From assembly GCF_016862935.1 (NCBI RefSeq), contig NZ_BONX01000030.1, positions 1-64,000 of the forward strand: 64,000 bases of DNA, read 5' to 3'. Origin of the DNA: Plantactinospora mayteni. GTDB lineage: Bacteria; Actinomycetota; Actinomycetes; Mycobacteriales; Micromonosporaceae. Numbering within the stretch: position 1 is the first letter of the stretch; every line of letters starts with the position of its first letter. A model generated the notes under the pieces. That model was not told the DNA's origin and did no database searches. It saw only the letters and a list, made by a program, of their open reading frames with translations. This document shows, one piece after another, positions 1-47,066 of the stretch. The translations under genes and the position numbers were made by a program.

Positions 1-4
1 CGCC

Positions 5-94
5 GGCTCAGAGGACAGGCGGCTCAGAGGACAGGCGGCTCAGAGGACAGGCGGCTCAGAGGACAGGCGGCTCAGAGGACAGGCGGCTCAGAGG
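5..94. repeat. 16-bp tandem array spanning the purB stop codon
   Basis: Five perfect copies of GGCTCAGAGGACAGGC lie at 5-84, followed by a sixth copy (85-94) that runs into purB. Read on the minus strand each unit contains CTC TGA, the last sense codon and stop of purB. The array therefore repeats the gene end five more times downstream. The period of 16 places successive TGA triplets in all three reading frames. The left edge of the array lies inside the window, since positions 1-4 depart from the unit. Confidence 0.95.
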
Positions 95-1512
95 ATCGGT
101 GCCGGGTCGTACGCGGCGGCTTCGGGGTGCGCCGCGACCACTGCGGCGATCCGGTCGGCCACGGCCCGGACCTGCGCGGACGCCGCCCCGGTGAAGCCGG
201 CACGCTCGGCGACCAACTCGTCGATCTCGGGCCGGGTGAGCCCGAGCCGGCCGTCGGCGGCGAGCCGGTCGAAGAGGTCGTTCTCGGCGGCGCCCTTCTC
301 CCGCATCGCCAGCGCCACCGCGACCGCGTGCTCCTTGATCACCTCGTGCGCGGTCTCCCGGCCAACCCCGCGCCGCACCGCCGCGACCAGGATCTTCGTG
401 GTGGCCAGGAACGGCAGGTAGCGGTCGAGTTCCCGGGCGATCACCGCCGGGTACGCGCCGAACTCGTCCAGCACGGTCAGGAAGGTCTGGAACAGCCCGT
501 CGGCGGCGAAGAAGGCGTCCGGCAGCGCGACCCGGCGCACCACCGAGCAGGAGACGTCGCCCTCGTTCCACTGGTCGCCGGCCAGCTCGCCGACCATCGA
601 CAGGTAGCCTCGGATGATCACCGCGAAGCCGTTCACCCGCTCGCTGGACCGGGTGTTCATCTTGTGCGGCATCGCGCTGGAGCCGACCTGGCCGGGACGG
701 AAGCCCTCGGTGGCCAGCTCCTGCCCGACCATCAGCCGGATGGTGGTGGCCAGGCTGCTCGGCGCGGCGGCGGTCTGGGCCAGCGCGGAGAGCACGTCGA
801 AGTCGAGCGAGCGTGGATAGACCTGGCCGACGCTGTCCAGTACGCGGCGGAAGCCGAGGTGCTCGGCGACCCGGCGCTCCAACTCGGCCACCTTCGCCGC
901 GTCCCCGTCGAAGAGGTCGAGCTGGTCGGCGGCGGTACCGACCGGCCCCTTGACGCCGCGCAGCGGATAGCGCTCGACGAGGTCGGTCAGCCGCTCGTAC
1001 CCGATCAGCAGCTCCTCGGCCGCGCTGGCGAACCGCTTGCCCAGCGTGGTCGCCTGGGCGGCGACGTTGTGCGAGCGGCCGGTCAGCACCAGGTCGGCGT
1101 GCTCGACGGCGAGCCGGGCCAGCCGGGCCAGGGTGGCGACCACCCGGTCCCGGACCAGCTCCAGCGAGGCGCGGATCTGGAGCTGCTCGACGTTCTCGGT
1201 CAGGTCCCGGGAGGTCATCCCCTTGTGCACCTGCTCGTACCCGGCCAGCGCGCTGAACTCCTCGATCCGCGCCTTCACGTCGTGCCGGGTCACCCGCTCC
1301 CGGGCCGCGATCGAGGCCAGGTCGACCTGGTCCAACACCCGCTCGTACGCCTCGACCACCCCGTCCGGCACCGGCACGCCGAGATCGCGCTGCGCCCGGA
1401 GTACGGCCAGCCAGAGCCGGCGCTCCATCCGGATCTTCTCCTCCGGGGACCAGAGGGCGGCCAGCTCGGCCGAGGCGTAACGGTTGGCGAGAACATTGGG
1501 AATGCTGGTCAC
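88..1512 (-). CDS. purB: adenylosuccinate lyase
   Basis: Cytosolic enzyme of purine synthesis that removes fumarate from SAICAR and from adenylosuccinate. The protein is 474 residues, the normal length for the actinobacterial form. The fumarase/aspartase signature GSSAMPHKMN is near residue 280 and the catalytic histidine region TGRSHN is near residue 145. The conserved actinobacterial N-terminus begins IPNVLANRYASAEL. I start at the GTG at 1510-1512; an in-frame ATG at 1528-1530 would add six residues (MVENGG) and cannot be excluded. The open frame runs further upstream to 1617, but that part is a 20-bp tandem repeat and is not conserved protein. The stop codon lies inside the tandem array at 5-94. 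The next gene upstream is on the same strand, 177 bp away. Confidence 0.96.
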   Translation of the reverse strand: MTSIPNVLANRYASAELAALWSPEEKIRMERRLWLAVLRAQRDLGVPVPDGVVEAYERVLDQVDLASIAARERVTRHDVKARIEEFSALAGYEQVHKGMTSRDLTENVEQLQIRASLELVRDRVVATLARLARLAVEHADLVLTGRSHNVAAQATTLGKRFASAAEELLIGYERLTDLVERYPLRGVKGPVGTAADQLDLFDGDAAKVAELERRVAEHLGFRRVLDSVGQVYPRSLDFDVLSALAQTAAAPSSLATTIRLMVGQELATEGFRPGQVGSSAMPHKMNTRSSERVNGFAVIIRGYLSMVGELAGDQWNEGDVSCSVVRRVALPDAFFAADGLFQTFLTVLDEFGAYPAVIARELDRYLPFLATTKILVAAVRRGVGRETAHEVIKEHAVAVALAMREKGAAENDLFDRLAADGRLGLTRPEIDELVAERAGFTGAASAQVRAVADRIAAVVAAHPEAAAYDPAPIL

Positions 1513-1553
1513 CCCGCCATTCTCGACCATCCCGCGACCGGTCGACCTACCGG

Positions 1554-1653
1554 CCACCGGAAGCTGCCTCGTGCCGCCGGGAGCTGTGCCGTGCCATGTT
1601 GCGCTGTCTCGTGCCACCGGGAGCTGCCTCGTGCCACGGGGAGCTGACCCGTC
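1554..1653. repeat. 20-bp tandem array upstream of purB
   Basis: Five contiguous degenerate copies of CCACCGGGAGCTGCCTCGTG start at 1554, 1574, 1594, 1614 and 1634. Copies 1, 2 and 4 are nearly identical; copies 3 and 5 are diverged. The array lies between the 3' end of the gene at 1690-2715 and the purB start, so it would be in the purB leader if purB has its own promoter upstream. No hairpin is obvious within one unit. Confidence 0.9.
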
Positions 1654-1689
1654 TCGGCCGAGCGGAGCTGTCCCGCCCTGCCGGGTGTC

Positions 1690-2715
1690 TCAGCCCTCCG
1701 CGAGGTGCCGGAACAGCGACTCGGTGGCGGGAATGTCGTCGGGGAGGTCCTGGCACCACAGCCGCGCGGTGCCGACCCCGATCCGGGCCAGCCCGCGAGA
1801 GAGCACCACCGTACGGTGCGCCAGCTCGGCCGAGGCGCTGGTCGGCACGACGTAGCCGCCAGGCCAGAGCCGGATGATCGGCTCGCCGTCGGGAAAGGTG
1901 GCCCGGAACCGGGTGGCCACCCGGGCCCGGAGTACGGACTCCGCCGTGATCGCCAGCTCGTCCCCGCACTCCGTGGCCGGCGGAGCCGGATCGGCCGCCG
2001 GAGGCTCGTCGGCACTGTCCGGTGGAGGCGTGGCCGCACCGGCCAGCGGCGGCATCGCAGCACCGCCCCGCGGAGGCTCGACGGCACCAGCCGGCGGAGG
2101 CATGGCCGCACCGTCCGGCGGAGAGTCTGCGGCATCGGGCAGCGGCGGCATGGCGGCGCCGGCCGACGGAGGCTCGGCCGCACCGGTTGGTGGGGACTCG
2201 GCGGCGAGGTCGGCGACGAGCAGCACGTGTCGGTTGCCGAGCGGGATGCCGGCTCGGCAGGCGCGCCGGGCGATCTCCTTCAGTACCGCCCGGAGCTGGC
2301 CGACACTGCCCAGCCGGGGCAGCGTGCCGACACAGGCCGCCGCGTGGTCCGGGACGAGGGTCACCGCGGTCCACGAGTCGCACAGTGTGCGTACCAGGTG
2401 GGCGGAGGGTTCGCCGGCCGGGAGTTGGCGGTACAGCGCGGTGAGGTCGGCGAGGGTGTCGTCGACGCCCATCCCGGCGGCGGCCCTGGCCCGGCCCAGT
2501 CGGGCGCAGGCCGGCCGTGGATCGCGCGTCTCCGCGATGGCCCTGGTCAGGCTGTCGACCGCAGGCGTCCACCACGTGCCGGTCCGCTCCGGAGAGCGGC
2601 GCAGCGCCGCCGCCCGCCACGCCTCGCGCAGGACGACCGCCTCGGTGCGGAAGCGGTGGATGGCCCGGGCACGGCGGTGCGCCGCCGTCGGGGTCAGTCG
2701 GCGTTCGTCATCCAT
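1690..2715 (-). CDS. hypothetical protein with Pro/Ala-rich repeat linker
   Basis: A 341-residue soluble protein that I do not recognise. The N-terminal ~180 residues are helical and rich in Arg and Ala. Residues ~175-245 form a low-complexity linker of repeated 7-10 residue blocks resembling GAAMPPLPDA and GAVEPPRGG. The C-terminal ~80 residues, containing FPDGEPIIRLWPGGYVVP and ending in FRHLAEG, look like a small folded alpha/beta domain, possibly a diverged GGDEF-like fold; that is only a suggestion. No signal peptide or membrane segment is visible. It is on the same strand as purB and divergent from the sigma-factor fusion at 3062. The start is the first ATG of the frame; the GC-rich repeated linker could be polymorphic. 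Confidence 0.75.
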   Translation of the reverse strand: MDDERRLTPTAAHRRARAIHRFRTEAVVLREAWRAAALRRSPERTGTWWTPAVDSLTRAIAETRDPRPACARLGRARAAAGMGVDDTLADLTALYRQLPAGEPSAHLVRTLCDSWTAVTLVPDHAAACVGTLPRLGSVGQLRAVLKEIARRACRAGIPLGNRHVLLVADLAAESPPTGAAEPPSAGAAMPPLPDAADSPPDGAAMPPPAGAVEPPRGGAAMPPLAGAATPPPDSADEPPAADPAPPATECGDELAITAESVLRARVATRFRATFPDGEPIIRLWPGGYVVPTSASAELAHRTVVLSRGLARIGVGTARLWCQDLPDDIPATESLFRHLAEG

Positions 2716-3061
2716 CCGGGTTCAGTTCTCCATCCGTCGCGGCAGTTCCTCTCGTCTAGACGGAGATTGCCGAGCACCGTGACGACGGCCGGAACAAAGG
2801 CGGCAAAACGGGTGGTCCGCTCGGAAAGATCGGAAACAATCCTTCACCTTCTGCCCTTGGCCACTTGCTGTTGGTAGTTTGGTCCCGCCGACGAGACCGC
2901 GGAACCAGCAGCGGACCAGCCCGGAGTACGGAGCAGCCGGGAGCACGGTCGCGCCAGGATCGCGCCTGAGTCCAGGATCGCGGCTGAGCCAGGAGCACGA
3001 CCGAGCCCCCGCGCCCGCACTGCCCACGATGGACCGACCACACCTCAGGACTTGGCAGGAC
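2716..3061. other. divergent intergenic region, no gene seen
   Basis: This 346-bp gap separates the divergent genes at 1690-2715 and 3062-5503. It includes a patch of lower GC (about 2790-2880) that probably holds the divergent promoters. The sigma-fusion frame stays open back to 2879, but that part is rich in Arg/Pro/Ser without family similarity and a better ribosome site (GGCAGGA) precedes the ATG at 3062. I could not define -35/-10 elements. Confidence 0.5.
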
Positions 3062-5503: not shown

Positions 5504-5526
5504 CCACCGCCGCCGCCATCGCCGGA

Positions 5527-5595
5527 CGACCGTCACCTGTACGCCAGATGCGTTACCGGGGACCGGTAGCGCCCTCCACGTCCAGGTCACCGATC
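5527..5595. repeat. copy A of a 69-bp dispersed palindromic element
   Basis: Gapless hand alignment with 9915-9983 gives about 49 identities in 69, with blocks such as CCAGATGCGTTAC/CCAGACGCGGTAC, TAGCG and the identical 3' segment GTCCAGGTCACCGATC. This copy has a weaker stem (ACCTGTACG with CGTCCAGGT) than copy B. It lies between the convergent 3' ends at 5503 and 5602, where it could act as a bidirectional terminator. Confidence 0.75.
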
Positions 5596-5601
5596 TGGGC
5601 G

Positions 5602-9130: not shown

Positions 9131-9132
9131 GA

Positions 9133-9914: not shown

Positions 9915-9983
9915 CGACCACGACCTGGACACCAGACGCGGTACGCCGCACGGTTAGCGCATCTGGTGTCCAGGTCACCGATC
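9915..9983. repeat. copy B of the 69-bp dispersed palindromic element
   Basis: This copy has a perfect 14-bp stem, ACCTGGACACCAGA pairing with TCTGGTGTCCAGGT, around a loop of about 26 nt that contains a smaller hairpin. It ends 6 bp before the stop codon of the GntR gene on the minus strand and could terminate it. Copy A is at 5527-5595. Confidence 0.8.
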
Positions 9984-15884: not shown

Positions 15885-17294
15885 ATGAGTGACAGGTACG
15901 CGAGCTTCGCCCACACCGGTCCCGGCCGGGCGCTGGTCAAGCGCCTCGGCCTGCCCGACCCGCCCAAGCTGCGCCGCCACCGCCCCGGCGACCCGCTGAC
16001 CACCGCCCCGGTACGCCTCGACGCCGCCTCCGGCGGCCGGCTGGTCGAACCGCTGGCCAAGCTGCTCACCTCGGCCGGCGTCGAGATCTCCCACTCATCC
16101 ACCGCCACAACCGACCCGGCCACCACCACAACCGACCCGGCCACCGCCGCGACCGGGCCGGCCGAGGGTGCGGGCCGAGGAGTGCCGCCGCAGGCCGCGC
16201 TGCTCTACGACGCCACCGGCATCACCGACTCGTCCGGGCTGCGCGCGCTCTTCGACTTCTTCCACCCGCTGGCCCGGGCGCTGCATCCGTCCGGCCGGGT
16301 GATCGTCTTCGGCACACCGCCGGAGTCCTGCGGCACGCCCCGGGAGGCGACCGCACAGCGCGCCCTCGAAGGACTGACCCGCAGCATCGGCAAGGAGTTC
16401 GGCCGGGGTACGACCGCGCAGCTCGTCTACGTCGCGCCGGGTGCCGAGCGGGCCGTCGAGTCGACCCTGCGCTTCCTGCTCTCCGGCCGCTCCGCGTACG
16501 TCTCCGGGCAGGTGGTCCGGATCGGCCCGGCCGAGGTGCCGGAGGTCGACTGGGCCCGCCCGCTCGACGGCCGGATCGCCCTGGTCACCGGGGCCGCCCG
16601 GGGAATCGGGGCGAAGGTCGCCGAGGTACTGGCGGCCGACGGTGCCCGGGTGGTGGCGCTGGACGTACCGGCGGCCGGGGACGCGCTCGCCGAGGTCGCC
16701 AACGCCGTCGGCGGTACGGCGGTGCAGCTCGACCTGACCGCGCCGGACGCGCCACTGCGGCTCGCCGACCACCTGGCCGACCGGTACGGCCGGGTGGACG
16801 TGCTGGTGCACAACGCCGGGATCACCCGGGACAAGACGCTCGGCCGGATGACCCCGGACTGGTGGGACTCGGTGCTGGAGGTCAACCTGACCAGCCAGGA
16901 GCGGATCAACGACGTACTCCTGGACCGCGAGCTGATCCCGCGCGGCGGCCGACTCATCTCGGTCTCCTCGATCGCCGGGATCGCCGGCAACCGGGGCCAG
17001 ACCAACTACGCCACCTCGAAGGCCGGGGTGATCGGCCTGGTGCAGTCGATGGCCCCGATGCTCGCCGAGCGCGGCATCACCGTCAACGCGGTCGCGCCGG
17101 GCTTCATCGAGACCCGGTTGACCGCCCGGATCCCGCTGGCACTCCGCGAGGCCGGCCGGCGGATGAACAGCATGGCGCAGGGCGGCCTGCCGGTCGACGT
17201 CGCGCAGACGATCGCCTGGTTCGCCTCGCCCGGCTCGGCCGGCGTCACCGGCAACGTGGTCCGGGTCTGCGGCCAGAGCCTGCTGGGGGCCTGA
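15885..17294 (+). CDS. fabG: 3-oxoacyl-ACP/CoA reductase, FabG4 (HMwFabG) type
   Basis: A 469-residue high-molecular-weight FabG that reduces 3-ketoacyl thioesters. The N-terminal ~220 residues form a degenerate flavodoxin-like domain characteristic of the FabG4 subgroup. The C-terminal SDR domain starts at ~230 with LVTGAARGIGAKVAEVLAADG. The NNAG equivalent is VLVHNAGITRDKT. The catalytic Ser lies in SVSSIAG (~362) and Tyr/Lys in NYATSKAG (~375). A Thr/Pro/Ala-rich stretch at residues ~70-90 (TATTDPATTTTDPATAAT) is unusual for the family. The gene is divergent from the thiolase and its stop TGA overlaps the ATG of the MaoC gene (TGATG), so the two are coupled. Confidence 0.92.
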   Translation: MSDRYASFAHTGPGRALVKRLGLPDPPKLRRHRPGDPLTTAPVRLDAASGGRLVEPLAKLLTSAGVEISHSSTATTDPATTTTDPATAATGPAEGAGRGVPPQAALLYDATGITDSSGLRALFDFFHPLARALHPSGRVIVFGTPPESCGTPREATAQRALEGLTRSIGKEFGRGTTAQLVYVAPGAERAVESTLRFLLSGRSAYVSGQVVRIGPAEVPEVDWARPLDGRIALVTGAARGIGAKVAEVLAADGARVVALDVPAAGDALAEVANAVGGTAVQLDLTAPDAPLRLADHLADRYGRVDVLVHNAGITRDKTLGRMTPDWWDSVLEVNLTSQERINDVLLDRELIPRGGRLISVSSIAGIAGNRGQTNYATSKAGVIGLVQSMAPMLAERGITVNAVAPGFIETRLTARIPLALREAGRRMNSMAQGGLPVDVAQTIAWFASPGSAGVTGNVVRVCGQSLLGA

Positions 17295-18238
17295 TGACCG
17301 ACCAGCCGAACACCACCGAGGGATTGCCGGACGCCACCGAGGGCTCGCCGGACGGCCCCGGGAGCGCGCCGGAGACGGCCGGAGTCGAGTTGGCGGCGCT
17401 GCCGGCGGCCGGGCCGCTCTACCGGCGGGCGGCGATCGGGCTGGCCCCACGGTTCGGGCCGGCCCGGCGGGCCGACCGGCTCCCCGAGACGGAACTGCTG
17501 GTCCGGGCGGTCGCGGTCGACCGGGACCACCTGGCGGCGTACGACCGGGTGTGCGGGTTCCGGCTCGCGGACGCGCTGCCGCCGACCTATCCGCACGTAC
17601 TCGCCTTTCCGTTGGCGCTGCGCCTGATGAGCGCGCCGGAGTTCCCGCTGCCCCTGGTCGGCCTGGTGCACGTGGCGAACCGGATCAGCACGTACCGCCG
17701 AATGGACGCGGTGGAGCCGCTGGACCTGGCGGTACGCGCCGTCGACCTGCGCCCGCACGACCGGGGCCGGCAGTTCGACGTGGTCTGCACCGCCTCGGTC
17801 GACGGGGAGGTGGTGTGGCGCGGCGTGTCGACGTACCTGCGGCGGGAGCGTACGCCAACGGAGGGCGAGCGGCGCGACTCCACGGACCGACCGGCCGCGC
17901 CGGCCCCGACCGGGTTGTGGCGGGTGGATTCCCGGGTGGGCCGGGACTACGCCCGGGTCTCTGGCGACCACAACCCGATCCACACCTCACGGATCGCCGC
18001 CCGGCTCTTCGGCTTCCCCCGGCCGATCGCGCACGGCATGTGGAGCAAGGCGCGCTGCCTGGCGGCGCTGGAGGGGCGGCTGCCCGACGCGTACACCGTG
18101 GATGTGGGGTTCAAGCTGCCCGTGCCGCTACCCGGCACCGTGGCCTTCTCCGCCACCCCGGACTGGAGCTTCGGGCTGCACGACCCGTCGCGCGGTCGGC
18201 CCTACCTGCTCGGTGAGGTCACGGCACCCCAGCTCTGA
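17294..18238 (+). CDS. MaoC-like (R)-specific 3-hydroxyacyl thioester dehydratase, HtdX-like
   Basis: A 314-residue double-hotdog dehydratase acting on 3-hydroxyacyl-CoA/ACP. The MaoC catalytic motif D-x-N-P-x-H appears as SGDHNPIHTSRIAARLFGF near residues 222-240, with the conserved IAHGMWSKA following. The N-terminal half (CGFRLADALPPTYPHVLAFPLALR) is the second, non-catalytic hotdog. The N-terminal ~30 residues are an acidic, low-complexity extension. It is translationally coupled to fabG; with the divergent thiolase this makes a three-step beta-oxidation/elongation module. The stop codon lies within a degenerate tandem array of the gene end (18227-18330). Confidence 0.9.
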   Translation: MTDQPNTTEGLPDATEGSPDGPGSAPETAGVELAALPAAGPLYRRAAIGLAPRFGPARRADRLPETELLVRAVAVDRDHLAAYDRVCGFRLADALPPTYPHVLAFPLALRLMSAPEFPLPLVGLVHVANRISTYRRMDAVEPLDLAVRAVDLRPHDRGRQFDVVCTASVDGEVVWRGVSTYLRRERTPTEGERRDSTDRPAAPAPTGLWRVDSRVGRDYARVSGDHNPIHTSRIAARLFGFPRPIAHGMWSKARCLAALEGRLPDAYTVDVGFKLPVPLPGTVAFSATPDWSFGLHDPSRGRPYLLGEVTAPQL

Positions 18239-18330
18239 CCCGGGCGACCGCCCTCAGCTCTGATCGGGGCGCACCGCGCCCCAGCTCTGATCCGGGTGAT
18301 GGCGCCCCAGGCTCTGACCAGGGTGATCCG
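18227..18330. repeat. ~26-bp tandem array spanning the maoC stop codon
   Basis: The end of the gene, CCCCAGCTCTGA, recurs at 18255, 18282 and 18308 (last copy CAGGCTCTGA), counted from the C of CAGCTCTGA at 18230. Spacing is 25, 27 and 26 bp. Between cores the units share a pattern near YCSGGGYGAYSGC. Copies are degenerate, so this array is older than the purB one. Confidence 0.85.
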
Positions 18331-19744: not shown

Positions 19745-20392
19745 TCAGTCCGGTGGGGTGGACGGGGGTCGCCAGGGGCGGCCGGCGAGCAGGTTGCCGG
19801 CGCCGGTCCAGGCGAAGTCCATCATCCGGCCGGCCATCGCGTCCGGATCGGCGTCGGGGTGGTCGGCCAGCCAGTCGGCAACCGACTCCGAGGCGCCGAC
19901 CAGGGCGTACGCCATGACTTCCAACTCGGGCGCGCGGACCTCGCGGCCGTCGGCGGCCAGGCCCCGGCCGAGCATCCCGGCGACCACCTCGATCATCCGG
20001 CTCCGCATCGCGGCCAGCTCGCGGGCGAACGGCCGCTCGCCCCGGGCCTGCCGGTAGAGCACGGCCCAGCCGTCCCGGTGCGCCCCGACGAACCGGAAGA
20101 ACGCCCGCAGCCCGCGCCAGAGCCCCTCCTCGAACGGCACACCCGGTACGACCGCGTCGACGATCGCCTCCACCAGCCGGGTCCCCTCCCGGTGCAGGCA
20201 GGCGATGAAAAGCTCCTCCTTGGACCCGAGATAGGCGTAGACCATGGGTTTGGAGATGCCCGCCCCGTCTGCGATCTCGTCCATGCTCGCCCCGTGGAAG
20301 CCACGTCGGGAGAAGACCTTGACCGCGGCGTCGAGCATCTGCTGCTCGCGTACGGCCCGGGGCAGTCGTCGGAAGGCGGGCGGAGTCGACAC
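19745..20392 (-). CDS. TetR/AcrR-family regulator, probable lipid-gene repressor
   Basis: A 215-residue TetR protein. The HTH is at ~17-63: REQQMLDAAVKVFSRRGFHG, MDEIADGAGISKPMVYAYLG, SKEELFIACL. The C-terminal ~150 residues are the ligand-binding domain. It is divergent from the SCP2 and acyl-CoA dehydrogenase genes, and a 28-bp palindrome lies between them, so it most likely represses itself and that lipid operon, responding to an acyl-CoA. The GTG start at 20390-20392 leaves a normal TetR N-terminus (STPPAFRRLPRAVREQQ). Confidence 0.9.
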   Translation of the reverse strand: MSTPPAFRRLPRAVREQQMLDAAVKVFSRRGFHGASMDEIADGAGISKPMVYAYLGSKEELFIACLHREGTRLVEAIVDAVVPGVPFEEGLWRGLRAFFRFVGAHRDGWAVLYRQARGERPFARELAAMRSRMIEVVAGMLGRGLAADGREVRAPELEVMAYALVGASESVADWLADHPDADPDAMAGRMMDFAWTGAGNLLAGRPWRPPSTPPD

Positions 20393-20488: not shown

Positions 20489-20941
20489 ATGACCGACTTC
20501 GACCCGGCGAACCTCGCCTCGCTCGAACCCAAGGAGTTCGCCCAGATCGTCAAGTCCACCCCGGACGACAAGCTGGCCGAGGTGATGAGCGGCGACCTGC
20601 GCGGCACGGTTCTCGGCACGGTGTTCGGCCGGATGCCGACGCTGTTCCGGGCCGACCGGGCCGGCAACACCGACACGGTCATCCACTGGACCATCACCGG
20701 CCGGGCCGACGGCGGCTCCGACACCTACGAGATCGTCATCGAGAACGCGACCTGCCAGGTCTCGGATACCCCGCAGCGGGACCCGAAGCTCACCCTCACG
20801 ATGGGCCCGGTCGAGTTCCTCAAGATCGTCTCTGGTGGAGCCAACCCGGTGATGATGTTCATGACCGGCAAGCTGAAGGCAAAGGGCGACCTCGGACTGG
20901 CGGCCAACATCGCCAACCTGTTCGACATCCCGAAGTCCTGA
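20489..20941 (+). CDS. SCP2 sterol-binding domain protein
   Basis: A single-domain 150-residue SCP2-like protein that would bind or carry lipids such as acyl-CoA or sterols. The fold is recognisable from LRGTVLGTVFGRMPTLFRADRAG, WTITGRADGGSDTYEIVIENATC, PKLTLTMGPVEFLKIVSGGANPVMMFMTGKLKAKGDLGLA. The final GKLKAKGDL block is diagnostic of SCP2. No signal or membrane segment. It precedes an acyl-CoA dehydrogenase by 93 bp; a strong hairpin lies between, so the second gene may rely on a separate promoter or read-through. Divergent from tetR. Confidence 0.9.
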   Translation: MTDFDPANLASLEPKEFAQIVKSTPDDKLAEVMSGDLRGTVLGTVFGRMPTLFRADRAGNTDTVIHWTITGRADGGSDTYEIVIENATCQVSDTPQRDPKLTLTMGPVEFLKIVSGGANPVMMFMTGKLKAKGDLGLAANIANLFDIPKS

Positions 20942-20949
20942 CCCCGGCA

Positions 20950-20978
20950 CCGGGGCGCCGGCCGAGCCGGCGCCCCGG
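20950..20978 (+). terminator. strong hairpin after scp2
   Basis: CCGGGGCGCCGGC pairs with GCCGGCGCCCCGG, 13 bp, over a 3-nt loop (CGA), 9 bp after the stop codon. It may terminate or attenuate transcription into the acyl-CoA dehydrogenase. Confidence 0.75.
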
Positions 20979-21025
20979 ACCGATCCGACGAACTGCGACG
21001 AGACCGACCCGACGAGCTGCGACGA
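20978..21025. repeat. 24-bp direct repeat upstream of the acyl-CoA dehydrogenase
   Basis: Two adjacent 24-bp copies, GACCGATCCGACGAACTGCG... at 20978-21001 and GACCGACCCGACGAGCTGCG... at 21002-21025, differ at two bases. They end 9 bp before the GTG start and the second copy abuts the ribosome site GAGGGG. Confidence 0.85.
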
Positions 21026-21034
21026 GGGGACGGC

Positions 21035-24458: not shown

Positions 24459-24516
24459 CGATCCTACGGGTCCGGCCCGGAGCCGCTGACGTCCGGCCGG
24501 AGTCGACTCGCGATGC

Positions 24517-27010
<2,494 letters not shown>

Positions 27011-27106: not shown

Positions 27107-29899
27107 GTGGTGAACAATCATGGAGACCGGGTGTACGTGCCCGGCCAGGTGCCGGCGGCGCCGCAGGAGGCCGAGCCGCTGTGGCCACCGGACGAGATCG
27201 TCGCCGAGCCGCGCGACGAGTCCAATCCCATCAGCTGGGCACCGACGCCACCACCGCCTCCGGACGCGACCCCGCCAGGCCCGATGGGCGGCGTTCCGCA
27301 GCCCGTCGCGCACCAGCCCTACCAGAGCACTCCGCCGCCTGCGGTCCCCGCTCCGCCACCCGCGTTCCCGGTACCGCCGGTCCCGTCCGTGCCGCCGGTC
27401 GCGTCGGTGCCGCCCGCGTTCGGTCCCGGGCCGGCTGTTCCGCCGGCCCCACCCGTTCCGCCGCCGCCGGTCCCGCCGGTGACCGCCATACCAGTACACC
27501 CGCCGACGCCGCCGGTGACCGCCGTACCGGTGCACCCGCCGACACCGCCCGTGCCGGCGCCGCCCGGTCCGGCCCCGAACAGCGGCGCGGTGGAGAGCCC
27601 GGTGCACTCGCCGACCCGGGTCTGGCCCACGGTCGCCCCGAGCAACCAGGGCCGGGCCTCGGTGGGTACCGGTGACGTCCGCCGCCCCGACACCACCGGC
27701 CGGCCGGAGAACACCGGTGGCCCGGACGCGGCCGGCCGGGCCCGGCCGGATTCCCCGGACCGGCCGGCGAACGGCGAGGAGCGCACCGGCGGCACCGGTA
27801 CGGCCGAGCCCCGGCCCGCCGGCAAGGCGAGCGTCAGCCCGACCGCCGGCAAGGCGACGGTCAGCCCGGTGAGCCCGGCCGCCGGCAAGGCGTCCGTCGC
27901 TCCGGCCGCTGGCAAGGCGACGGTGAGCCCGACGGCGGGCAAGGCGACGGTCGGCCCGGCGACCGGGGCGACCCCGGCCGCCCCGACCAGCGGCGCCGCC
28001 CCGACCGGCGGTGCCCACCCGAGCAGTGGGGCGCAGCCGAACGGCGGGACGAATCCGAACCGCGACGCGGCTCCGACGAACGGGTCCGCCTCGACCAGCG
28101 GTGCGACCCCGACCGGCGGGGTGGCCGCCTCGACCGGTGGAGCGAGCCCGGTCAGCGGAGCGAGCCCAGTCAGCGGGGCGGTGGCCGGAGGCGCCGGGGC
28201 GGGCGAGTCGTCGTCCGGTGCGGAGGAGAGCAGGCCGGCTACCGCCCAGGGCAGCGCGGACGGGGCGGCCGAGGCCGGTATGGCGAAGCCGGAGGCCGAG
28301 CCGGCCAAGCAGCGGGAATCCGCCCGCGCCGCCGAGCCCGCCCGTGGTCGGGCGACGCTGCCCGCCACCAGCCGGGCCCAGCCGGACGGCGGCCCGGCCG
28401 GGCGGCCCGCGGAGTCACCGTGGGCCCAGCCGCCGCAGCGACCGGTCGGCCCACCTCACGGCGTCGCGGCACCGATCGCGGCACAGCCGATCCCGCCACC
28501 GCCGGTGACCGCGCAGCCGGTACCGCCGCAGCCCGTCTCCGGGCCCGGTCCCGATCCGGCGGCCGGATCGGCCCCGCCGGTCGGCCCGTACCCGCCGACG
28601 ATCACCCCGGGCCCGTACTCGGCGGCAGCGCGTCCGGTGTCGGCCTATCCACCGGCGCCGTCGCCCCAACCGCCGGGCCCGCCCCAGCCGCCGGTCACGG
28701 CATACCCGGCGTACCCGCCACAGCCGCCGGACCAGCCCGGTCCGCCGGGTTATCCGAGCCAGCCCGGCTATCCGAGCTACCCGCCGCCGCCCCCGCCGAT
28801 TTCTGGCCCGCAGTCCGGCTGGGCACCACCGCCGCCCCCGCCGGTCCCGCCGCACCCCGGGGTCACCGAGGTGCCGCAGCAGCCGTACGCCGAGTCGGCC
28901 GGGGTGCAGCGGGTGCCGCCACAACCGGCGAACGCCTACCCGGACCCGCTCTGGACACCGGACTCCGGCACTCCCACCGCCGAGGACTTCGCCCGGCGCC
29001 GGGCGGTACGCCCCGCCGACCCCGTCGCGCAGATGGGGGTACGCGCCGCCGTCAACAAGACCACCCTGGGGCTGGTGAAGCTCTCTCCGGGGCGGCACGA
29101 GCAGGAGATCAAGCACGACATCGAGATGATCCGCCGGAACTTCGGCGGGCTCCGGCAGGTGACCGTCGTCAATCCCAAGGGCGGTGCCGGCAAGACGGTG
29201 GCGATCCTGCTGCTGGCGATGACCTTCGGGCAGAAGCGCGGCGGGTACGTGCTGGCCTGGGACAACAACGAGACCCAGGGCACCCTGGGAATGCGGGCCC
29301 AGCAGGACTTCCACTCCCGCACGGTGCGGGACATGCTGCGCGACCTCTACCAGTTCCGGGGCGCGCAGGGCCGGGTCGGCGACCTGTCGCAGTACGTACG
29401 CTCGCAGAGCGAGGGGATGTTCGACGTCCTCGCCTCCGACGAGTCGGCGACCGGTGGCGAGATGCTCACCGCCGCCGCCTTCGCGGAGATTCGCGAGGTG
29501 GTCAGCCGGTTCTACAAGTTGATCTTCGTGGACACCGGTAACAATGTCCGGGCCCAGAACTGGCAGGCGGCGATCGACGCCACCGACCAGCTCGTGGTGA
29601 CCATGTCGGCCAGGAACGACTCCGCCGAGACGGCCGCCCGGATGCTCGACCACCTGGAGCAGAGCGGCCGGCAGCGACTCGTCCGGCAGGCGGTGACGGT
29701 GGTCTCCATGCCGCCGTCCCGCAAGGAGATCGACCTGCCGGCGATCGAGCGGCACTTCGCCGCCCGGACCAGGGTGGTGCTGTTGGCCCCGTACGAGCGT
29801 TTGATCGACACCGGCGAGCCGATCCGGTACGCCCAGCTCTCGTCCGCGACCCGGGACGCCTGGCTCAAGATCGCCGCATCGGTGGCCGAAGGGCTCTGA
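27107..29899 (+). CDS. MinD/ParA-type ATPase with ~690-residue Pro-rich N-terminus
   Basis: A 930-residue protein. Residues 1-~640 are disordered and rich in Pro, Ala, Gly, Ser and Thr, with blocks such as AGKATVSPTAGKA repeated at ~240-295 and many PPP/PVPP runs. The C-terminal ~270 residues form a P-loop ATPase with a deviant Walker A motif KGGAGKT near 690-697 and the walker B-like LIFVDTGNN. This architecture resembles actinobacterial MinD-like proteins associated with type VII secretion or cell-pole partitioning (EspI class), but no ESX genes are nearby. Function is therefore unassigned. GTG start at 27107 with GGGAGG upstream. Confidence 0.8.
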   Translation: MVNNHGDRVYVPGQVPAAPQEAEPLWPPDEIVAEPRDESNPISWAPTPPPPPDATPPGPMGGVPQPVAHQPYQSTPPPAVPAPPPAFPVPPVPSVPPVASVPPAFGPGPAVPPAPPVPPPPVPPVTAIPVHPPTPPVTAVPVHPPTPPVPAPPGPAPNSGAVESPVHSPTRVWPTVAPSNQGRASVGTGDVRRPDTTGRPENTGGPDAAGRARPDSPDRPANGEERTGGTGTAEPRPAGKASVSPTAGKATVSPVSPAAGKASVAPAAGKATVSPTAGKATVGPATGATPAAPTSGAAPTGGAHPSSGAQPNGGTNPNRDAAPTNGSASTSGATPTGGVAASTGGASPVSGASPVSGAVAGGAGAGESSSGAEESRPATAQGSADGAAEAGMAKPEAEPAKQRESARAAEPARGRATLPATSRAQPDGGPAGRPAESPWAQPPQRPVGPPHGVAAPIAAQPIPPPPVTAQPVPPQPVSGPGPDPAAGSAPPVGPYPPTITPGPYSAAARPVSAYPPAPSPQPPGPPQPPVTAYPAYPPQPPDQPGPPGYPSQPGYPSYPPPPPPISGPQSGWAPPPPPPVPPHPGVTEVPQQPYAESAGVQRVPPQPANAYPDPLWTPDSGTPTAEDFARRRAVRPADPVAQMGVRAAVNKTTLGLVKLSPGRHEQEIKHDIEMIRRNFGGLRQVTVVNPKGGAGKTVAILLLAMTFGQKRGGYVLAWDNNETQGTLGMRAQQDFHSRTVRDMLRDLYQFRGAQGRVGDLSQYVRSQSEGMFDVLASDESATGGEMLTAAAFAEIREVVSRFYKLIFVDTGNNVRAQNWQAAIDATDQLVVTMSARNDSAETAARMLDHLEQSGRQRLVRQAVTVVSMPPSRKEIDLPAIERHFAARTRVVLLAPYERLIDTGEPIRYAQLSSATRDAWLKIAASVAEGL

Positions 29900-38862: not shown

Positions 38863-38986
38863 CGTTCGTCTCCGTCCCCACGCACCGCCCCACGGACCCG
38901 GCGAGTGTACGGGCCAACCTCGGCGAACAGCGCGGGAACGACGTGACGCGGAGGTGAACAGCACACTACGGGAACCGGTCGACGGC

Positions 38987-39014
38987 GCCGAACGGTTCAG
39001 GTCGAAAGGTTCAG
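38987..39014. repeat. 14-bp repeat at the LCP gene end
   Basis: GCCGAACGGTTCAG (38987-39000) and GTCGAAAGGTTCAG (39001-39014) are adjacent, 12 of 14 identical; the second contains the stop codon of the LCP gene. This is a minimal, less certain example of the stop-spanning duplications seen at purB, purA, maoC, dedA and the class II aldolase. Confidence 0.5.
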
Positions 39015-40159
39015 CGGGTGACCCGGTCCGGGTGCTTGTCGACCCATTCGGCCAGGGTGTCCCGCTGGAGCGCGTCGAACAGGCTGCGGCTCTGGGCCGG
39101 GTCCAGGCTCTCGACCTGGCCGACCGGCCCACGGTCCGGGTGGTACGTCCAGCCGATCCCCACCGCGTCCGCCGCGGCCACCGTGCGCAGCGTGCCGAAC
39201 AGCTCCGGCGGGGTCATCCCGTCGAGGTCGAGGGTCAGGTTCCGGCCGAGCACCCGGACGATCTCCGCGACCCGGACCGGGTTCAGCCCGTTGGCCGGGT
39301 CGGTGACCTCGTGCAGCAGCGCCTCGGCGAACCGCTGCCCGTTGCGGTCCCGGTCGTGCGCCCCCTGGTCCAGCCGGTACCGCTGCCGGAGCAGGTCCTG
39401 CGCGGCGGCGCCGTCGAGTTGCTGGCAGCCGGCCGGGAAGACCCGGGCGGTGTGGTAGGACCGGACCTGCTGCGGCAGGCACACCCGGACCCCGCCGACC
39501 GCGTCGGTCAGTTGGCGCAGCCCGGCGTAGGTCAGCGTCGCGGTCGCGTCGAACCGGATCCCGGTCAGCGCCGTGACGGTCCGTTCGGTCAACGCGGCAC
39601 CGGCCGCCAGGTCGGGCCGGCTCCCGGGCCGGTGACTGCCGAGGTAGAACGCGGCGCTGAGTTTCCCGAAGCCGTGCTCGGGCACCTCGACGCCGAGGTC
39701 CCGGGGGATCGACACGAGATAGAGCCGGCTCCGGTCCGCCGGCACGTGCACCATCAGCACGGTGTCCGCGCGGTGGCCGTTGCTCCGGCCGTCCCCGCCG
39801 TCGAGGCCGAGGACGAGGAAGTTCAAGGGCTCGGCCGGACCGGTCGGCCGGGTCGCGAGCGGCGGTGCGGGGACCTCCGACACCGGCGACATCCCCACGG
39901 TACGGCCGAGCGTCGGCAGCGCGAGCACGCCGAGCATGGCGAGGGCGGCCCCGGCGACCTGGGCGACACGGCGCCGGCGACGTCGACCCACCGCCCGGCG
40001 GTCGATCGCCGCGCGCAGCGGTCCGGCCTCCGGGGCCAGCGACTCGTGCCGGGCGAACGCCGCCCGCAACTCGTCCTCGACCGTTCGTGGGTCCGGGCCA
40101 CCGGCCGACCCGTCCGGCCCCGGCGAGCCGTCGAACACCCGGATGTCGTCGTCGCTCAC
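39011..40159 (-). CDS. LytR-CpsA-Psr (LCP) family wall-polymer ligase
   Basis: A 382-residue membrane protein. A Lys/Arg-rich cytoplasmic start (~45-70, VGRRRRRRVAQVAG) precedes a TM helix (LAMLGVLALPTLG, ~80). The LCP domain contains the conserved FLVLGLDGGDG...RADTVLMVHV, RLYLVSIPRDLGV, YAGLRQLTDAVGGV and the GCQQLDGAAAQDLLRQRYRL block (Asp/Arg). LCP proteins attach teichoic acid, arabinogalactan or other glycopolymers to peptidoglycan. The GTG start is 1 nt after the ECF sigma stop, so the two are one transcription unit and the sigma factor may drive cell-envelope stress expression of the LCP protein. Confidence 0.9.
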   Translation of the reverse strand: MSDDDIRVFDGSPGPDGSAGGPDPRTVEDELRAAFARHESLAPEAGPLRAAIDRRAVGRRRRRRVAQVAGAALAMLGVLALPTLGRTVGMSPVSEVPAPPLATRPTGPAEPLNFLVLGLDGGDGRSNGHRADTVLMVHVPADRSRLYLVSIPRDLGVEVPEHGFGKLSAAFYLGSHRPGSRPDLAAGAALTERTVTALTGIRFDATATLTYAGLRQLTDAVGGVRVCLPQQVRSYHTARVFPAGCQQLDGAAAQDLLRQRYRLDQGAHDRDRNGQRFAEALLHEVTDPANGLNPVRVAEIVRVLGRNLTLDLDGMTPPELFGTLRTVAAADAVGIGWTYHPDRGPVGQVESLDPAQSRSLFDALQRDTLAEWVDKHPDRVTR

Positions 40160-40160
40160 T

Positions 40161-40640: not shown

Positions 40641-40726
40641 GGGCACCTCCGGGCCTCTCCTCCCTTATAGACGGAAGGGCGGGACAGGAAGATTGCCTGA
40701 CGCGGAACGGGTCCGACGACGGGGCC

Positions 40727-40762: not shown

Positions 40763-40834
40763 AACGCGGCCGAGGACGCCCGCCGACGGTAATCGGCGCG
40801 ACGGGGCGGTCGGAAAGCTGTCAGCATTGTCGAC

Positions 40835-42340
40835 GTGTTGATCACCGTGACCACGACCCACCAGCCGGCCACCGACCTGGGCTACCTGCTCGTGAAGCAT
40901 CCCGACCGGGTGCACACCTTCGGGATGCCCACCGGTACGGCGTACGTGGTGTATCCGGAGGCCGACACCGAGCGCTGTACCGCCGCCCTGCTGCTCGACA
41001 TCGACCCGCTGGCGCTCTCCGGGGCCCGAACCCGGCGGGGCGGATCCGGGCGGGGCGGCAACCCGACGCCGGACGGCTTCACCCTCGGCCAGTACGTCAA
41101 CGACCGGTCGTACGCCGCCTCCAGCCTGCTCTCCTCGGCACTCTCCACCGTGTTCCGCTCGGCGCTGCGCGGGAACTCGAAGGACCGGCCGGAGCTGGCC
41201 GCCACCGCGATCCCGCTGGAGCTGCGGGTGCCCGCGCTGCGCTGCCGGGGCGGAGCCGAGCTGACCGAGAAGCTCTTCGCCCCGCTGGGCTGGACGGTGA
41301 CCGCCGTCCCGATCCCGCTCGACCCCAGCCGCCCGGACTGGGGCGACAGCCGGTACGTCGATCTCACCCTGACCGGTACGCTCCGGCTCGCCGACGCGCT
41401 CAACCACCTCTACGTGCTGCTGCCGGTGCTGGACGACGCCAAGCACTACTGGGTCGCGCCGGACGAGATCGACAAGCTGCTCCGGGCCGGCGCCGGCTGG
41501 CTGGCCGAACACCCGGAACGCGGGCTGATCACCCGCCGCTACCTGGCCCACCGGCGGGCGCTGGCCGGTGCCGCACTGGCCCGCCTGGCCGAGCAGCGGC
41601 TGGCCGACGAGCCGGCCGACCCGGACTCCATCGTGGAGGCTCCGGACTGCGGGGCGGACGAGGAGGCCGGCCTGCCTGCCACGGTCGACCGGCAGCCGCT
41701 CGCGGCACTGCGCCGGGCCGCCGTACTCGCCGCGCTGGACTCCTCCGGCGCCACCCGGGTACTCGACCTCGGCTGCGGCGGCGGCGCGCTGCTGACCGAT
41801 CTGGTGAAGAACCGCCGCTACACCGAGATCGTCGGCACGGACGTCTCGTCCCGGAGCCTGACCGTGGCGGAACGCCGGCTCCGGCTGGACCGGCTGCCGC
41901 CCCGGCAGCGCGAGCGGATCAAACTGTGGCAGTCCGCGCTGACCTACCAGGACGACCGGCTGCGCGGGTACGACGCCGCCGTGCTGATGGAGGTGGTCGA
42001 GCACCTCGACCCGCCCCGCCTGCCGGCGCTGGAGGCGGCCGTCTTCGGGCACGCCCGGCCGGAGACGGTGGTCGTGACGACCCCGAACGTCGAGTACAAC
42101 GTGCGGTACCCGGGGCTGGCCGCCGGTGCTTTCCGGCACACCGACCACCGGTTCGAGTGGACTCGGGCCGAGTTCGCGGACTGGACCGGCGCGGTCGGCG
42201 CCCACTACGGCTACGCAGTCACGATCAGTGGCGTCGGCGCCGACGACCCCGAGGTCGGCAGCCCCACCCAGCTCGCGGTCTTCACCCGCACCGCCCCCAA
42301 CCCGACACCGCAGCCGACCGACCTGGGAGACGCCCGATGA
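40835..42340 (+). CDS. hen1: 3' terminal RNA ribose 2'-O-methyltransferase Hen1
   Basis: A 501-residue protein that 2'-O-methylates the broken 3' end during RNA repair, protecting the healed junction. The N-terminal ~240 residues form the ligase-activating domain (DLGYLLVKHPDRVHTFGMP, YVVYPEADTERCTAALLLDID). The C-terminal ~200 residues are the methyltransferase: VLDLGCGGGALLTDLV (SAM site, ~308-322), MEVVEHLDPPRLPALEAAVF (~385-404) and the Hen1-specific metal and catalytic HTDHRFEWTRAEF (~435-447). The gene overlaps pnkp by ATGA, the conserved bacterial RNA-repair operon arrangement. GTG start at 40835, matching the conserved MLITVTTTHQPATDLGY start. Confidence 0.95.
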   Translation: MLITVTTTHQPATDLGYLLVKHPDRVHTFGMPTGTAYVVYPEADTERCTAALLLDIDPLALSGARTRRGGSGRGGNPTPDGFTLGQYVNDRSYAASSLLSSALSTVFRSALRGNSKDRPELAATAIPLELRVPALRCRGGAELTEKLFAPLGWTVTAVPIPLDPSRPDWGDSRYVDLTLTGTLRLADALNHLYVLLPVLDDAKHYWVAPDEIDKLLRAGAGWLAEHPERGLITRRYLAHRRALAGAALARLAEQRLADEPADPDSIVEAPDCGADEEAGLPATVDRQPLAALRRAAVLAALDSSGATRVLDLGCGGGALLTDLVKNRRYTEIVGTDVSSRSLTVAERRLRLDRLPPRQRERIKLWQSALTYQDDRLRGYDAAVLMEVVEHLDPPRLPALEAAVFGHARPETVVVTTPNVEYNVRYPGLAAGAFRHTDHRFEWTRAEFADWTGAVGAHYGYAVTISGVGADDPEVGSPTQLAVFTRTAPNPTPQPTDLGDAR

Positions 42341-44922: not shown

Positions 44923-44924
44923 GA

Positions 44925-44975
44925 GCACCCCTGCCCTGGTCGGCGGCTGGTCGATTCCGCCGCCGACCGGGGTGC
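44925..44975 (+). terminator. terminator hairpin after pnkp
   Basis: Nested stems GCACCCC/GGGGTGC (44925-44931 and 44969-44975) and GGTCGGCGGC/GCCGCCGACC (44938-44947 and 44959-44968) form a bulged hairpin of 51 nt, 3 bp after the stop codon. Confidence 0.8.
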
Positions 44976-45130
44976 CCGTCCGGAATGCGCCGGCCGGTCC
45001 GGTCCGGGTACCCCCGGCGGTGGCATCGCGCGGCGGCTGTCGGGAACGTCCGCCTAGACTGCTGTGGTACCCGCCACCATGCTGGTGGACCCTTCACCCG
45101 CGCCATGCCGAGTGTTCCGGAGGTCTCCTC

Positions 45131-45844
45131 GTGCCGACGCCCACCACCACGCTGGCCCTGGGTCCGGATTGGCTGGATCCGGAGTGGTTGATCTCGACCT
45201 TCGGGCTGCTCGGCATCCTGGCCATCGTCTTCGCCGAGTCCGGGCTGCTGATCGGCTTCTTCCTGCCCGGCGACTCGCTGCTGTTCACGGCCGGCCTGCT
45301 GACCGCCGACGGTCAATACATCACCTACCCGTTGTGGCTGGTCTGCCTGCTGATCACGATCGCGGCGATCGCCGGCGACCAGGTCGGGTACGCGTTCGGC
45401 AAGAAGGTCGGTCCCGCGCTGTTCCGCCGCCCCAACTCGCGGCTGTTCAAGCAGGAGAACGTGGTCAAGGCGCACGAGTTCTTCGAGAAGTACGGCGCCC
45501 GATCGGTAGTACTGGCCCGGTTCGTGCCGATCGTCCGTACCTTCACCCCGATCGTCGCCGGGGTCAGCGGGATGCGCTACCGCACCTTCGTGCTCTACAA
45601 CGTGATCGGCGGCATCCTCTGGGGTACCGGGGTCACCGTGCTCGGCTTCTTCCTCGGCCAGATCCCGTTCGTCAAGACGAACATCGAGCTGATCCTGATC
45701 GCCATCGTCGTCATCTCGGTGATCCCGATCGTCATCGAGCTGCTCCGGGCCCGGATGGCCGCCCGGCGCGGCACCACCCCTGCCGAGCGGGACGAACTGG
45801 AGCACGCGGCCCAGGAGACCCAGCAGCACCGCCGCGGCTACTAG
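45131..45844 (+). CDS. DedA-family membrane protein
   Basis: A 237-residue protein of the SNARE-associated/DedA class. Helices ~ LISTFGLLGILAIVFAESG, GFFLPGDSLLFTAGLL, LWLVCLLITIAAIAGD, followed by the family signature FGKKVGPALFRRPNSRLFKQENV and the re-entrant GARSVVLARFVPIVRTFTPIVAGVSGM with a conserved Arg. DedA proteins scramble or export lipids and are needed for envelope integrity. GTG start at 45131 with GGAGG at -9. The stop codon is repeated: TAGGTCCAGCGGGAT is followed by TAGGTCAGCGGGAT 23 bp later. Confidence 0.92.
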   Translation: MPTPTTTLALGPDWLDPEWLISTFGLLGILAIVFAESGLLIGFFLPGDSLLFTAGLLTADGQYITYPLWLVCLLITIAAIAGDQVGYAFGKKVGPALFRRPNSRLFKQENVVKAHEFFEKYGARSVVLARFVPIVRTFTPIVAGVSGMRYRTFVLYNVIGGILWGTGVTVLGFFLGQIPFVKTNIELILIAIVVISVIPIVIELLRARMAARRGTTPAERDELEHAAQETQQHRRGY

Positions 45845-45886
45845 GTCCAGCGGGATTCGGCGGGTAGGTCAGCGGGATCGTCGGGG
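45842..45886. repeat. 23-bp duplication spanning the dedA stop codon
   Basis: TAGGTCCAGCGGGATTCGGC at 45842 recurs as TAGGTCAGCGGGATCGTCGG at 45865, with the stop TAG first in each copy. It is one of five stop-spanning duplications in the window. Confidence 0.8.
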
Positions 45887-45935
45887 CCGGCGACAGCCTC
45901 CCCCGACGGCTACCCACAGCGGCGCGGCCGGCAAC

Positions 45936-46152
45936 TCGCTGGTCGCGCCGCACTCGACCCGAGCCGGCACCCCCAACTCAGACGCTCGTTCCGCCGCCGT
46001 CGAGCCGGGCCAGCACCTCAGCTCAGGCCCTGGTCACGCCGCCCACGACCCGGGCCCGGCGGCTCAGCTCAGACGCGGATCTCGCCGGCGTCGCCCGGCC
46101 CGGCACCTCAGCTCAGACGCTTGTCGCGCCGGCGTCGAGCCGGGCCAGGAAC
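45936..46152. repeat. ~45-bp tandem array spanning the class II aldolase stop codon
   Basis: The end of the aldolase gene (TCAGACGC..CGGCGTCGAGCCGGGCCAG) at 46113-46152 recurs upstream on the plus strand with TCAGACGC at 46069, TCAGGCCC at 46023, TCAGACGC at 45978 and a more diverged TCGCTGG at 45936. Periods are 44, 46, 45 and 42 bp. Four copies are clear; the fifth is weak. The whole array lies downstream of the gene's stop codon on its minus strand. Confidence 0.88.
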
Positions 46153-47066
46153 TCGGCGGGCAGCTCCGGCAAGTCGGCCAGCCGCCCGGCGGCGAGCGCC
46201 CGGTACGTCAGCCGGGCCGCCTCCTCCAGGTTGGCGGCCCGCTTGTGCGCCAGTTCCACACTGTCGGCCAGCACCGAGCAGCCGTGCCGGCTCAACACCA
46301 GACAGTTGGTGCCGTCCCGGGTCGCGTCGGCGGCCAACTCGGCCAGTTCGCTGGTGCCGGGCAGCCGGAACGGCACCCGGGCGATCCGGCGCAGGTAGAA
46401 GCCGTGGTCGGTGGTGACCAGCCGGATCTGTTCGCCGAGCGCGTCGAGCAGCAGCACGGTCTGCGGGTGCAGGTGGACGATCGCGTTCACGTCCGGCCGG
46501 GCCCGATAGGTGGCGAGGTGCAGGGCGACCTCGCTGGTCGGCAGGGTCGCCGACGCCGACGGGCCGGCTGCGGTCTCCACGCTCGACGGGCCAGCCTCGC
46601 CCTGGACGTGCGGGGGCACGGAACGCCGCGTCACGGCCACACGGGCGGCGGCGGGCACACCGACGGAAGCGGAGGCACCACCGGCGACCGAGGGTACGGC
46701 GCTCGGTGCCCGTTGTGCGGGCAGCGTCGTACCGTCCGGGAGGGCAGCACCGTCCTGGCGGGTCTGTCCGGCTGTCCGGCTCGGCCGTGCCGGGCCGGCG
46801 TCGAGGGCCGGACCTCCAGAGCGGAGTGGATCGTCCGAGTAGGTCGGCGGTTCCGTACGGACGGAACCATCCGATATCCGCACTCGGACGAAGGACGGAC
46901 GGTCAAGCCGGTCCAGCCAGGTGCCGCCAGCGGTCACCCAGCAGGAATCGCCGTCGGGCAACCGGGCGGACAGGTTGCCGCCGGAACCGATCACCAGACC
47001 GGTCCGGACGACGTCCTGCCCGACGTACGCGAGCTGATCCCGCAGGTCTCCCCGGAGATAGTTCAC
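46113..47066 (-). CDS. class II aldolase/adducin-family protein with large insertion
   Basis: A 317-residue zinc-dependent aldolase/epimerase homologue. The N-terminal NLSARLPDGDSCWVTAGGTW is followed by a ~100-residue low-complexity insertion (~77-175) of mostly Pro/Ala/Ser/Gly/Arg. The domain then resumes with PTSEVALHLATYRARPDVNAIVHLHPQT, which supplies Glu179 and zinc-ligand His198 and His200, and later LVLSRHGCSV with His261. All ligands remain, so the enzyme may still be active on a sugar-phosphate such as fuculose-1-phosphate or a methylthioribulose-phosphate type substrate. The insertion falls in the loop just before the catalytic Glu, an unusual place. GTG start at 47064-47066. Confidence 0.83.
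   Translation of the reverse strand: MNYLRGDLRDQLAYVGQDVVRTGLVIGSGGNLSARLPDGDSCWVTAGGTWLDRLDRPSFVRVRISDGSVRTEPPTYSDDPLRSGGPALDAGPARPSRTAGQTRQDGAALPDGTTLPAQRAPSAVPSVAGGASASVGVPAAARVAVTRRSVPPHVQGEAGPSSVETAAGPSASATLPTSEVALHLATYRARPDVNAIVHLHPQTVLLLDALGEQIRLVTTDHGFYLRRIARVPFRLPGTSELAELAADATRDGTNCLVLSRHGCSVLADSVELAHKRAANLEEAARLTYRALAAGRLADLPELPAEFLARLDAGATSV

Follow-up and report, generated by a model that had tools for sequence, protein, structure and literature searches.

Recurrent gene-end tandem arrays in Plantactinospora mayteni: probably ordinary duplications made visible by a protein-silent boundary

Gene-end arrays in the window

The stretch of DNA analysed here, hereafter the window (64,000 nucleotides), opens contig C30 in the draft genome of Plantactinospora mayteni, an assembly of 9.84 Mb (9,841,081 bases) in 123 contigs. 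Several genes of the window end in short tandem arrays whose repeated unit includes the stop codon; an initial annotation had listed purB, a maoC-like gene, purA, dedA, a class II aldolase gene and, weakly, an LCP gene. Arrays were called with Tandem Repeats Finder (TRF) and compared with dinucleotide-shuffled sequences. The genes, the arrays at their ends and two arrays lying in a 3' flank without the stop are as follows.

88..1530, minus strand: purB, adenylosuccinate lyase (NCBIfam TIGR00928), stop TGA at 90-88
4..95, minus strand: array at the purB 3' end, 5.8 or more copies of a 16-bp unit, 100% (TRF), cut by the contig end
1553..1646, minus strand: array in the 3' flank of gene 1690-2715, stop not included, 20 bp x 4.7
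17294..18238, plus strand: maoC-like gene, with weak matches to HadA/HadB models that stay under the model cut-offs
18227..18317, plus strand: maoC-like array, 27 bp x 3.5, 82% (TRF), spanning the stop at 18236-18238
20978..21026, plus strand: array in the 3' flank of gene 20489-20941, stop not included, 24 bp x 2
24583..25887, minus strand: purA
24505..24600, minus strand: putative degenerate repeat of about 23-24 bp at the purA 3' end, limits set by eye, marginal
38900..39040, minus strand: claimed 14-bp repeat at the 3' end of the LCP gene (39011-40159, LCP domain)
45842..45885, plus strand: dedA array, 22-23 bp x 2.0 with an indel, starting at the stop TAG 45842-45844
46113..47066, minus strand: class II aldolase gene
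45937..46148, minus strand: aldolase array, about 45-46 bp x 4.7, 73% (TRF), spanning the stop at 46115-46113

Four of the six proposed gene ends were borne out by TRF and shuffles. None of 300 shuffles reached the ungapped self-match of the purB array, of the aldolase array, which fills about two thirds of its convergent gap, or of the two arrays that begin about 43 bp (1553-1646) and 36 bp (20978-21026) past a stop. The maoC-like array was likewise unmatched, both by ungapped self-match (0/300) and by TRF (0/1000). The dedA array, whose gene matches the DedA family below cut-off, was equalled by 1 of 1000 shuffles under TRF but by 100 of 300 under ungapped self-match, a failure probably due to the indel in the array. 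The purA end is marginal: TRF called no array there, a loose rhythm of about 23-24 bp is readable by eye only, and the best self-match, at period 42 rather than about 24, was reached by 10 of 300 shuffles. The repeat claimed for the LCP gene does not rise above chance (38/300 shuffles, no TRF array). A stricter scan of the 50 gene calls in the window, which left aside calls running off either end and required the best ungapped match to span the stop, retained purB and aldolase alone. TRF also called repeats in a divergent gap of the window (2907-2994).

The purB array, whose 16-bp period places stops in all three frames, lies at the start of both window and contig, and its 16-mer is found five times over at the end of contig C29. 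C29 and C30 are probably neighbours, with the break inside the purB array (1-95). Given the copies at the end of C29, the 5.8 copies counted here are a minimum for the true number. Exact copies of the 16-mer occur in the genome only at this split locus, and elsewhere we found only single matches with two mismatches.

Position of arrays relative to the stop codon

The sample of this genome (G000) comprised 832,748 of its 9,841,081 bases, mostly contig starts, which were kept in although enriched in arrays. Relatives were represented by 200 kb around purB from each of seven additional Micromonosporaceae genomes and from a single genome elsewhere in the order, and the pooled Micromonosporaceae data amount to 2.2 Mb from eight genomes. 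Gene calls came from a purpose-made codon-usage finder and are uncurated, and genes may be hidden in long gaps.

In P. mayteni, 12-mers recurred within 60 bp downstream for 0-0.8% of coding anchors up to position -18, for 2.5-4.9% of those between -12 and the stop, and for 2.5-6.6% on to +140, after which recurrence was lower; the rise begins about 15 bp or less from the stop. Binned, recurrence was 0.3-0.6% in coding sequence, 4.3% for anchors straddling the stop, 3.5-6.0% to +160 and 1.05% beyond, and stop 12-mers paired with the flank of another gene matched in only 3 of 6497 cases. TRF coverage was low near start codons (0.8-1.5% from -20 to +40). Six of the eight Micromonosporaceae samples had the same recurrence shape, which was weak in G001 near purB and in G016. 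Within convergent gaps of the eight samples, repeats made up 14-19% of bases up to 100 bp from a stop; the share was 7.5-9% between 100 and 150 bp, 2.7-6.4% between 150 and 300 bp and, over few bases, 6-11% between 350 and 425 bp. Coverage in divergent gaps was 4-7% between 25 and 225 bp from the start. Arrays occupy roughly the first 120-150 bp past the stop as a plateau, without a peak at the stop itself.

This plateau bears directly on the suggestion that arrays are limited to the stretch immediately spanning the stop codon, which is not supported: recurrence stays high from the stop to about +140, and counts of straddling arrays fit or modestly exceed a protein-silent null. Among 761 flanks, in which arrays of convergent gaps were counted once for each of the two stops, 48 of 207 arrays straddled the stop, 4 of the 48 reaching deeper into the gene. 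The null assumes uniform breakpoints, with left edges allowed from one unit before the stop and an edge density taken from +3 to +63; it predicts 32.4 straddling arrays, and 44 were observed in addition to the 4 deeper ones. The 44 leave out two arrays of the window, that of purB, whose flank is cut by the contig end, and that of the aldolase gene, whose best TRF row has a period of 90, above the limit of 60. Depending on the edge window, the ratio of observed to expected was 1.36-1.56 (one-sided p 0.014-0.09). Convergent gaps held 14 straddling arrays against 15.2 expected; in codirectional gaps 30 were counted where 17.0 were expected. The codirectional surplus may arise because the promoter of the next gene constrains the rest of the gap and lowers the reference density. 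A small excess linked to the stop may be present as well. The enrichment at stops that the initial annotation proposed to check is accordingly real relative to starts, mid-gene positions and divergent gaps, with little or none over the remaining 3' flank.

Density and unit length

Array density was 1.53 per kb in 3' zones (208 in 136 kb) and 0.55 per kb in divergent gaps (57 in 105 kb). Of 575 arrays in coding sequence, 514 had units divisible by three, giving 0.30 in-frame arrays per kb (514 in 1737 kb), not far under one third of the 3' density (0.51 per kb). Given this proximity, a single genome-wide process combined with local filtering may suffice to account for both. Within the window, dense repeats with periods of 9-90 at 27810-28120, inside a 782-aa gene call (27551-29899), probably correspond to a low-complexity protein segment.

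Turnover between species

We compared 3' ends among five species of the genus, one genome per species, in 1003 reciprocal ortholog pairs, of which 702 were comparable. The other 301 were dropped because neighbour orientation differed or the gap was below 1 or above 800 bp, and include purB of this genome. With a TRF score of at least 50 required and unit relatedness judged by a shared k-mer rule, 500 pairs lacked arrays altogether, 165 carried one in just one of the two species and 37 in both, and none of these 37 had related units. Where only one species had an array, its gap was the longer one in 129 of 165 pairs, by a median of 52 bp (Wilcoxon p=1.7e-12, for pairs that share genomes and gaps and are therefore not independent). 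The arrays are thus a concrete source of intergenic growth.

Individual loci illustrate the same turnover. At purB, a 16-bp period is found both in this genome and in G006, with copies largely alike within each species and letters that differ between them; the G005 ortholog has an 11-bp two-copy repeat by eye, the array of G004 lies farther downstream, and the 3' ends in G001, G002 and G003 have no array. The period at the maoC-like gene is 27 bp here and 10 bp in G001, and that at dedA is 22 bp here and 17 bp in G004; such different periods at one stop presumably reflect separate births. On this comparison of sequences, unit turnover between species of the genus appears almost complete. The initial view that arrays arise by a process acting again and again, and not by the spread of one element, was thereby supported, since none of the 37 shared array sites had related units and the purB 16-mer occurs elsewhere only with at least two mismatches. 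Units also differ from gene to gene, as had been noted, with no common sequence at dispersed sites.

Distribution among lineages

Among flanks of at least 120 bp, an array was present in 70 of 285 in this genome, 20 of 85 in G003, 13 of 66 in G004, 23 of 76 in G006, 22 of 108 in G001 (two samples) and 14 of 62 in each of G007 and G009, and in only 9 of 110 in G016 (two samples) and 3 of 51 in G030. The value for G016 is low against G009 and G007 together (28/124, p=0.004). G001 had at first looked array-poor, with 7 arrays for 61 flanks, a suggestion that was dropped after ten other stretches of that genome gave arrays in 16 of 47 flanks.

A wider comparison by named genus was restricted to loci around purA, 71 of 80 being grouped from their titles, with one "Actinobacteria bacterium" locus placed in Streptomycetaceae and nine loci of metagenome-assembled genomes without a family name omitted. 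Here, 42 of 109 Streptomycetaceae flanks had an array, the 24 loci concerned being orthologous and hence not independent, as against 25 of 237 in four other actinobacterial groups together; Frankia had 2 of 18, and the two loci named as Micromonospora together 3 of 11. Arrays are thus commoner in the sampled Streptomyces and in most of the Micromonosporaceae genomes than in the other actinobacteria.

Origin of the arrays

Taken together, we consider that genome-wide tandem duplication of the slippage type, sieved by selection, best explains the gene-end arrays, with a probability of roughly 0.7. Throughout the genome, mispairing of slipped strands or a switch of template from one short repeat to another would give rise to short tandem duplications, mostly of about 10-60 bp, and new arrays would then expand, homogenise and decay fast. 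Selection would set their persistence: within coding sequence almost only units divisible by three would survive, few arrays would be retained near starts and promoters, and most of those lying 3' of a gene would persist. A duplication whose unit includes the stop does not alter the protein, as translation still ends at the first copy, and the tolerated zone would for this reason begin one unit length before the stop. The stop-copying arrays would then be the upstream edge of a presumably neutral 3' zone rather than the product of a separate stop-codon process. Replication slippage tolerated 3' of genes had been among the causes first suggested, and it is the best fit. Directly observed are the position profile, the selection of units by frame, the turnover between species and the added length. 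If slippage is the cause, an apparent stop-codon signature can stem from a boundary: the protein is untouched by a duplication that takes in the stop, and a genome-wide mutation process becomes visible at gene ends. The arrays are real, recurrent and easily overlooked.

The sequence of two-copy duplications fits slippage between short repeats: among perfect ones from all gap types, 27 of 49 carried 4 bp or more of additional matching sequence, against about 1.4 expected in the absence of microhomology. A genome without MutS may contribute as well. The NucS_C domain is present and the MutS_V domain was not found in the genome, and a published account of NucS-type repair states that it leaves short indels uncorrected (PMC8228993).

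Several observations weigh against this explanation. Arrays are about three times as dense in the 3' zone as in divergent gaps, repeat coverage in convergent gaps drops beyond 150 bp (part of which may come from uncalled genes in long gaps), and codirectional gaps have the surplus of straddling arrays described above. The extra match at two-copy duplications may be a remnant of decayed third copies, and the absence of MutS may be irrelevant, since units of 16-45 bp exceed the loops that MutS normally repairs. Finally, a looser listing (TRF score from 44) of the window region contains three cases of related repeats between species: purB in G000 and G006; a hairpin-like two-copy repeat of 23-24 bp in G001 and G003, 108-168 bp past the orthologs of 19745-20338; and an in-frame 12-bp coding repeat before the stop in the G001 and G006 orthologs of 49469-50206.

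The density contrast and the coverage drop are also what one would expect if the approximately 150 bp past genes in Micromonosporaceae and Streptomyces were a true duplication hotspot, in which transcription termination or collisions between RNA polymerase and the replication fork raise the rate of template-switch duplication. The 37 ortholog pairs with arrays in both species, where about 20 would be expected from marginal frequencies (gap length uncontrolled), point the same way. However, promoter constraint on divergent gaps can explain the difference in density. Terminator-like hairpins were as frequent with arrays as without (65 of 128 flanks against 262 of 513), 33 of the 65 best hairpins fell within the array, close to a length expectation of 56%, and Streptomycetaceae loci had hairpins in 14 of 28 flanks with arrays and 32 of 49 without. 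We therefore regard such a hotspot as rather unlikely. Were it real, locus-private arrays would be supplied continually, gene spacing would widen, short-read assemblies would break and the rate would vary from one related lineage to another. The two possibilities can be tested against each other through the three-fold density contrast with divergent gaps and the variation among lineages.

Retention of the arrays for gene expression, as terminators, RNA-stability elements or protein-binding sites, appears highly improbable. Tandem-repeat length is reported to affect expression for the rnc-fpg1 gap of M. tuberculosis (PMC2734929), and one hairpin-like 23-24 bp repeat is common to G001 and G003. 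Against this, hairpins, and with them candidate intrinsic terminators, are not enriched in array flanks, units are unrelated from gene to gene and hardly conserved, and arrays are often absent in orthologs.

Still more doubtful is the suggestion that the copies are maintained as backup stop codons in several frames. It was put forward with the purB array as an example, whose period puts stops in all frames, and TGA is present in many units. Unit lengths show no bias away from multiples of three, which account for 21 of 48 straddling and 58 of 157 downstream arrays, so that frame-shifting lengths are not in excess. Among second copies, 30 of 44 (68%) preserve the stop triplet, which is about the rate seen for control triplets (777 of 1244, 62%), in an ungapped test that omits 4 of the 48 arrays and misses retention across indels such as that of dedA. 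The arrays are also little conserved between species, and Ho and Hurst reached a comparable conclusion for additional in-frame stops in eubacteria, finding no compelling sign that these are selected (PMC6764699).

That the arrays are assembly artefacts, as 11 of 40 contig starts examined lying in arrays that make up 2.9% of the sample might suggest, is very unlikely as a general cause, since contigs broken at arrays would give the same excess and the single-contig relatives G004, G007 and G009 carry arrays at the frequencies given above. The arrays are instead a source of contig breaks in GC-rich actinobacterial drafts, and copy numbers at such sites are minima. Hexamer arrays of GTTGCC and GGAGCC open contigs C32 and C33 (the initial 80-90 bases of L039 and L040); with a period divisible by three, they are possibly coding.

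Comparison with known repeats

The arrays resemble intergenic minisatellites or variable-number tandem repeats in their head-to-tail units of about 10-60 bp and in a unit private to its locus, the latter tested genome-wide for the purB 16-mer only and otherwise seen as differences among the listed genes; they are possible strain-typing markers. A close likeness is the M. tuberculosis rnc-fpg1 gap (VNTR3239/ETR-F), where direct repeats lie in a short gap after a gene, and the gap measures 279-358 bp in the listed members of the M. tuberculosis complex and 1-54 bp in the other listed mycobacteria (PMC2734929). Its repeats start 40 bp past the stop and form one unit set (PMC2734929), whereas here there are many unrelated arrays, 48 of 207 straddling the stop, with near-complete unit turnover within the genus.

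Mycobacterial interspersed repetitive units (MIRUs) are likewise short repeats at gene boundaries, but the literature describes them as seemingly mobile, with insertion at start codons (PMC12548453), while the arrays here have no common sequence. We found no sign of a mobile repeat family, as units differ among genes and the purB unit is not dispersed in the genome. Archaeal Borg tandem repeats differ in having perfect, A-enriched units on extrachromosomal elements, whereas the arrays described here are chromosomal and GC-rich, often with degenerate copies, and reach their highest density 3' of genes. A survey of prokaryote satellites reports, in the accessible part, unrelated and unique satellites scattered through the genomes of some species and tabulates S. 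coelicolor among the satellite-rich ones; in that text the word "stop" is absent and 3'-end position is not tied to stops (PMC6749651). Among the matches listed from open-licence literature, mostly titles and abstract openings, no description of stop-straddling arrays in actinobacteria was found.

Other repeats

An in-frame 12-bp repeat of 4.8 copies at 49474-49531, directly before the stop of gene 49469-50206, appears from its similar G001 and G006 orthologs to be a rare case of a coding repeat retained across species.

Two palindromic repeats also occur after gene ends. One, of about 55 bp and resembling repetitive extragenic palindromes or miniature inverted-repeat transposable elements, lies at 9922-9976 and 5507-5601 of the window and has at least 31 matches at E<=0.01 in its own genome among the 40 of 99 candidates scored, many of them both-strand duplicates. 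The second dispersed palindrome, GATAAGnnGGGGCCCTTCCTT, has 6 exact matches in 5 of 261 loci of the relatives G002, G003 and G004 (L053 711-731, L054 2982-3002, L170 16135-16155 and 19168-19188, L173 19210-19230, and L185 6928-6948), those in L053 and L173 probably being one site, and it occurs after purB in G002 and after purA in G003.

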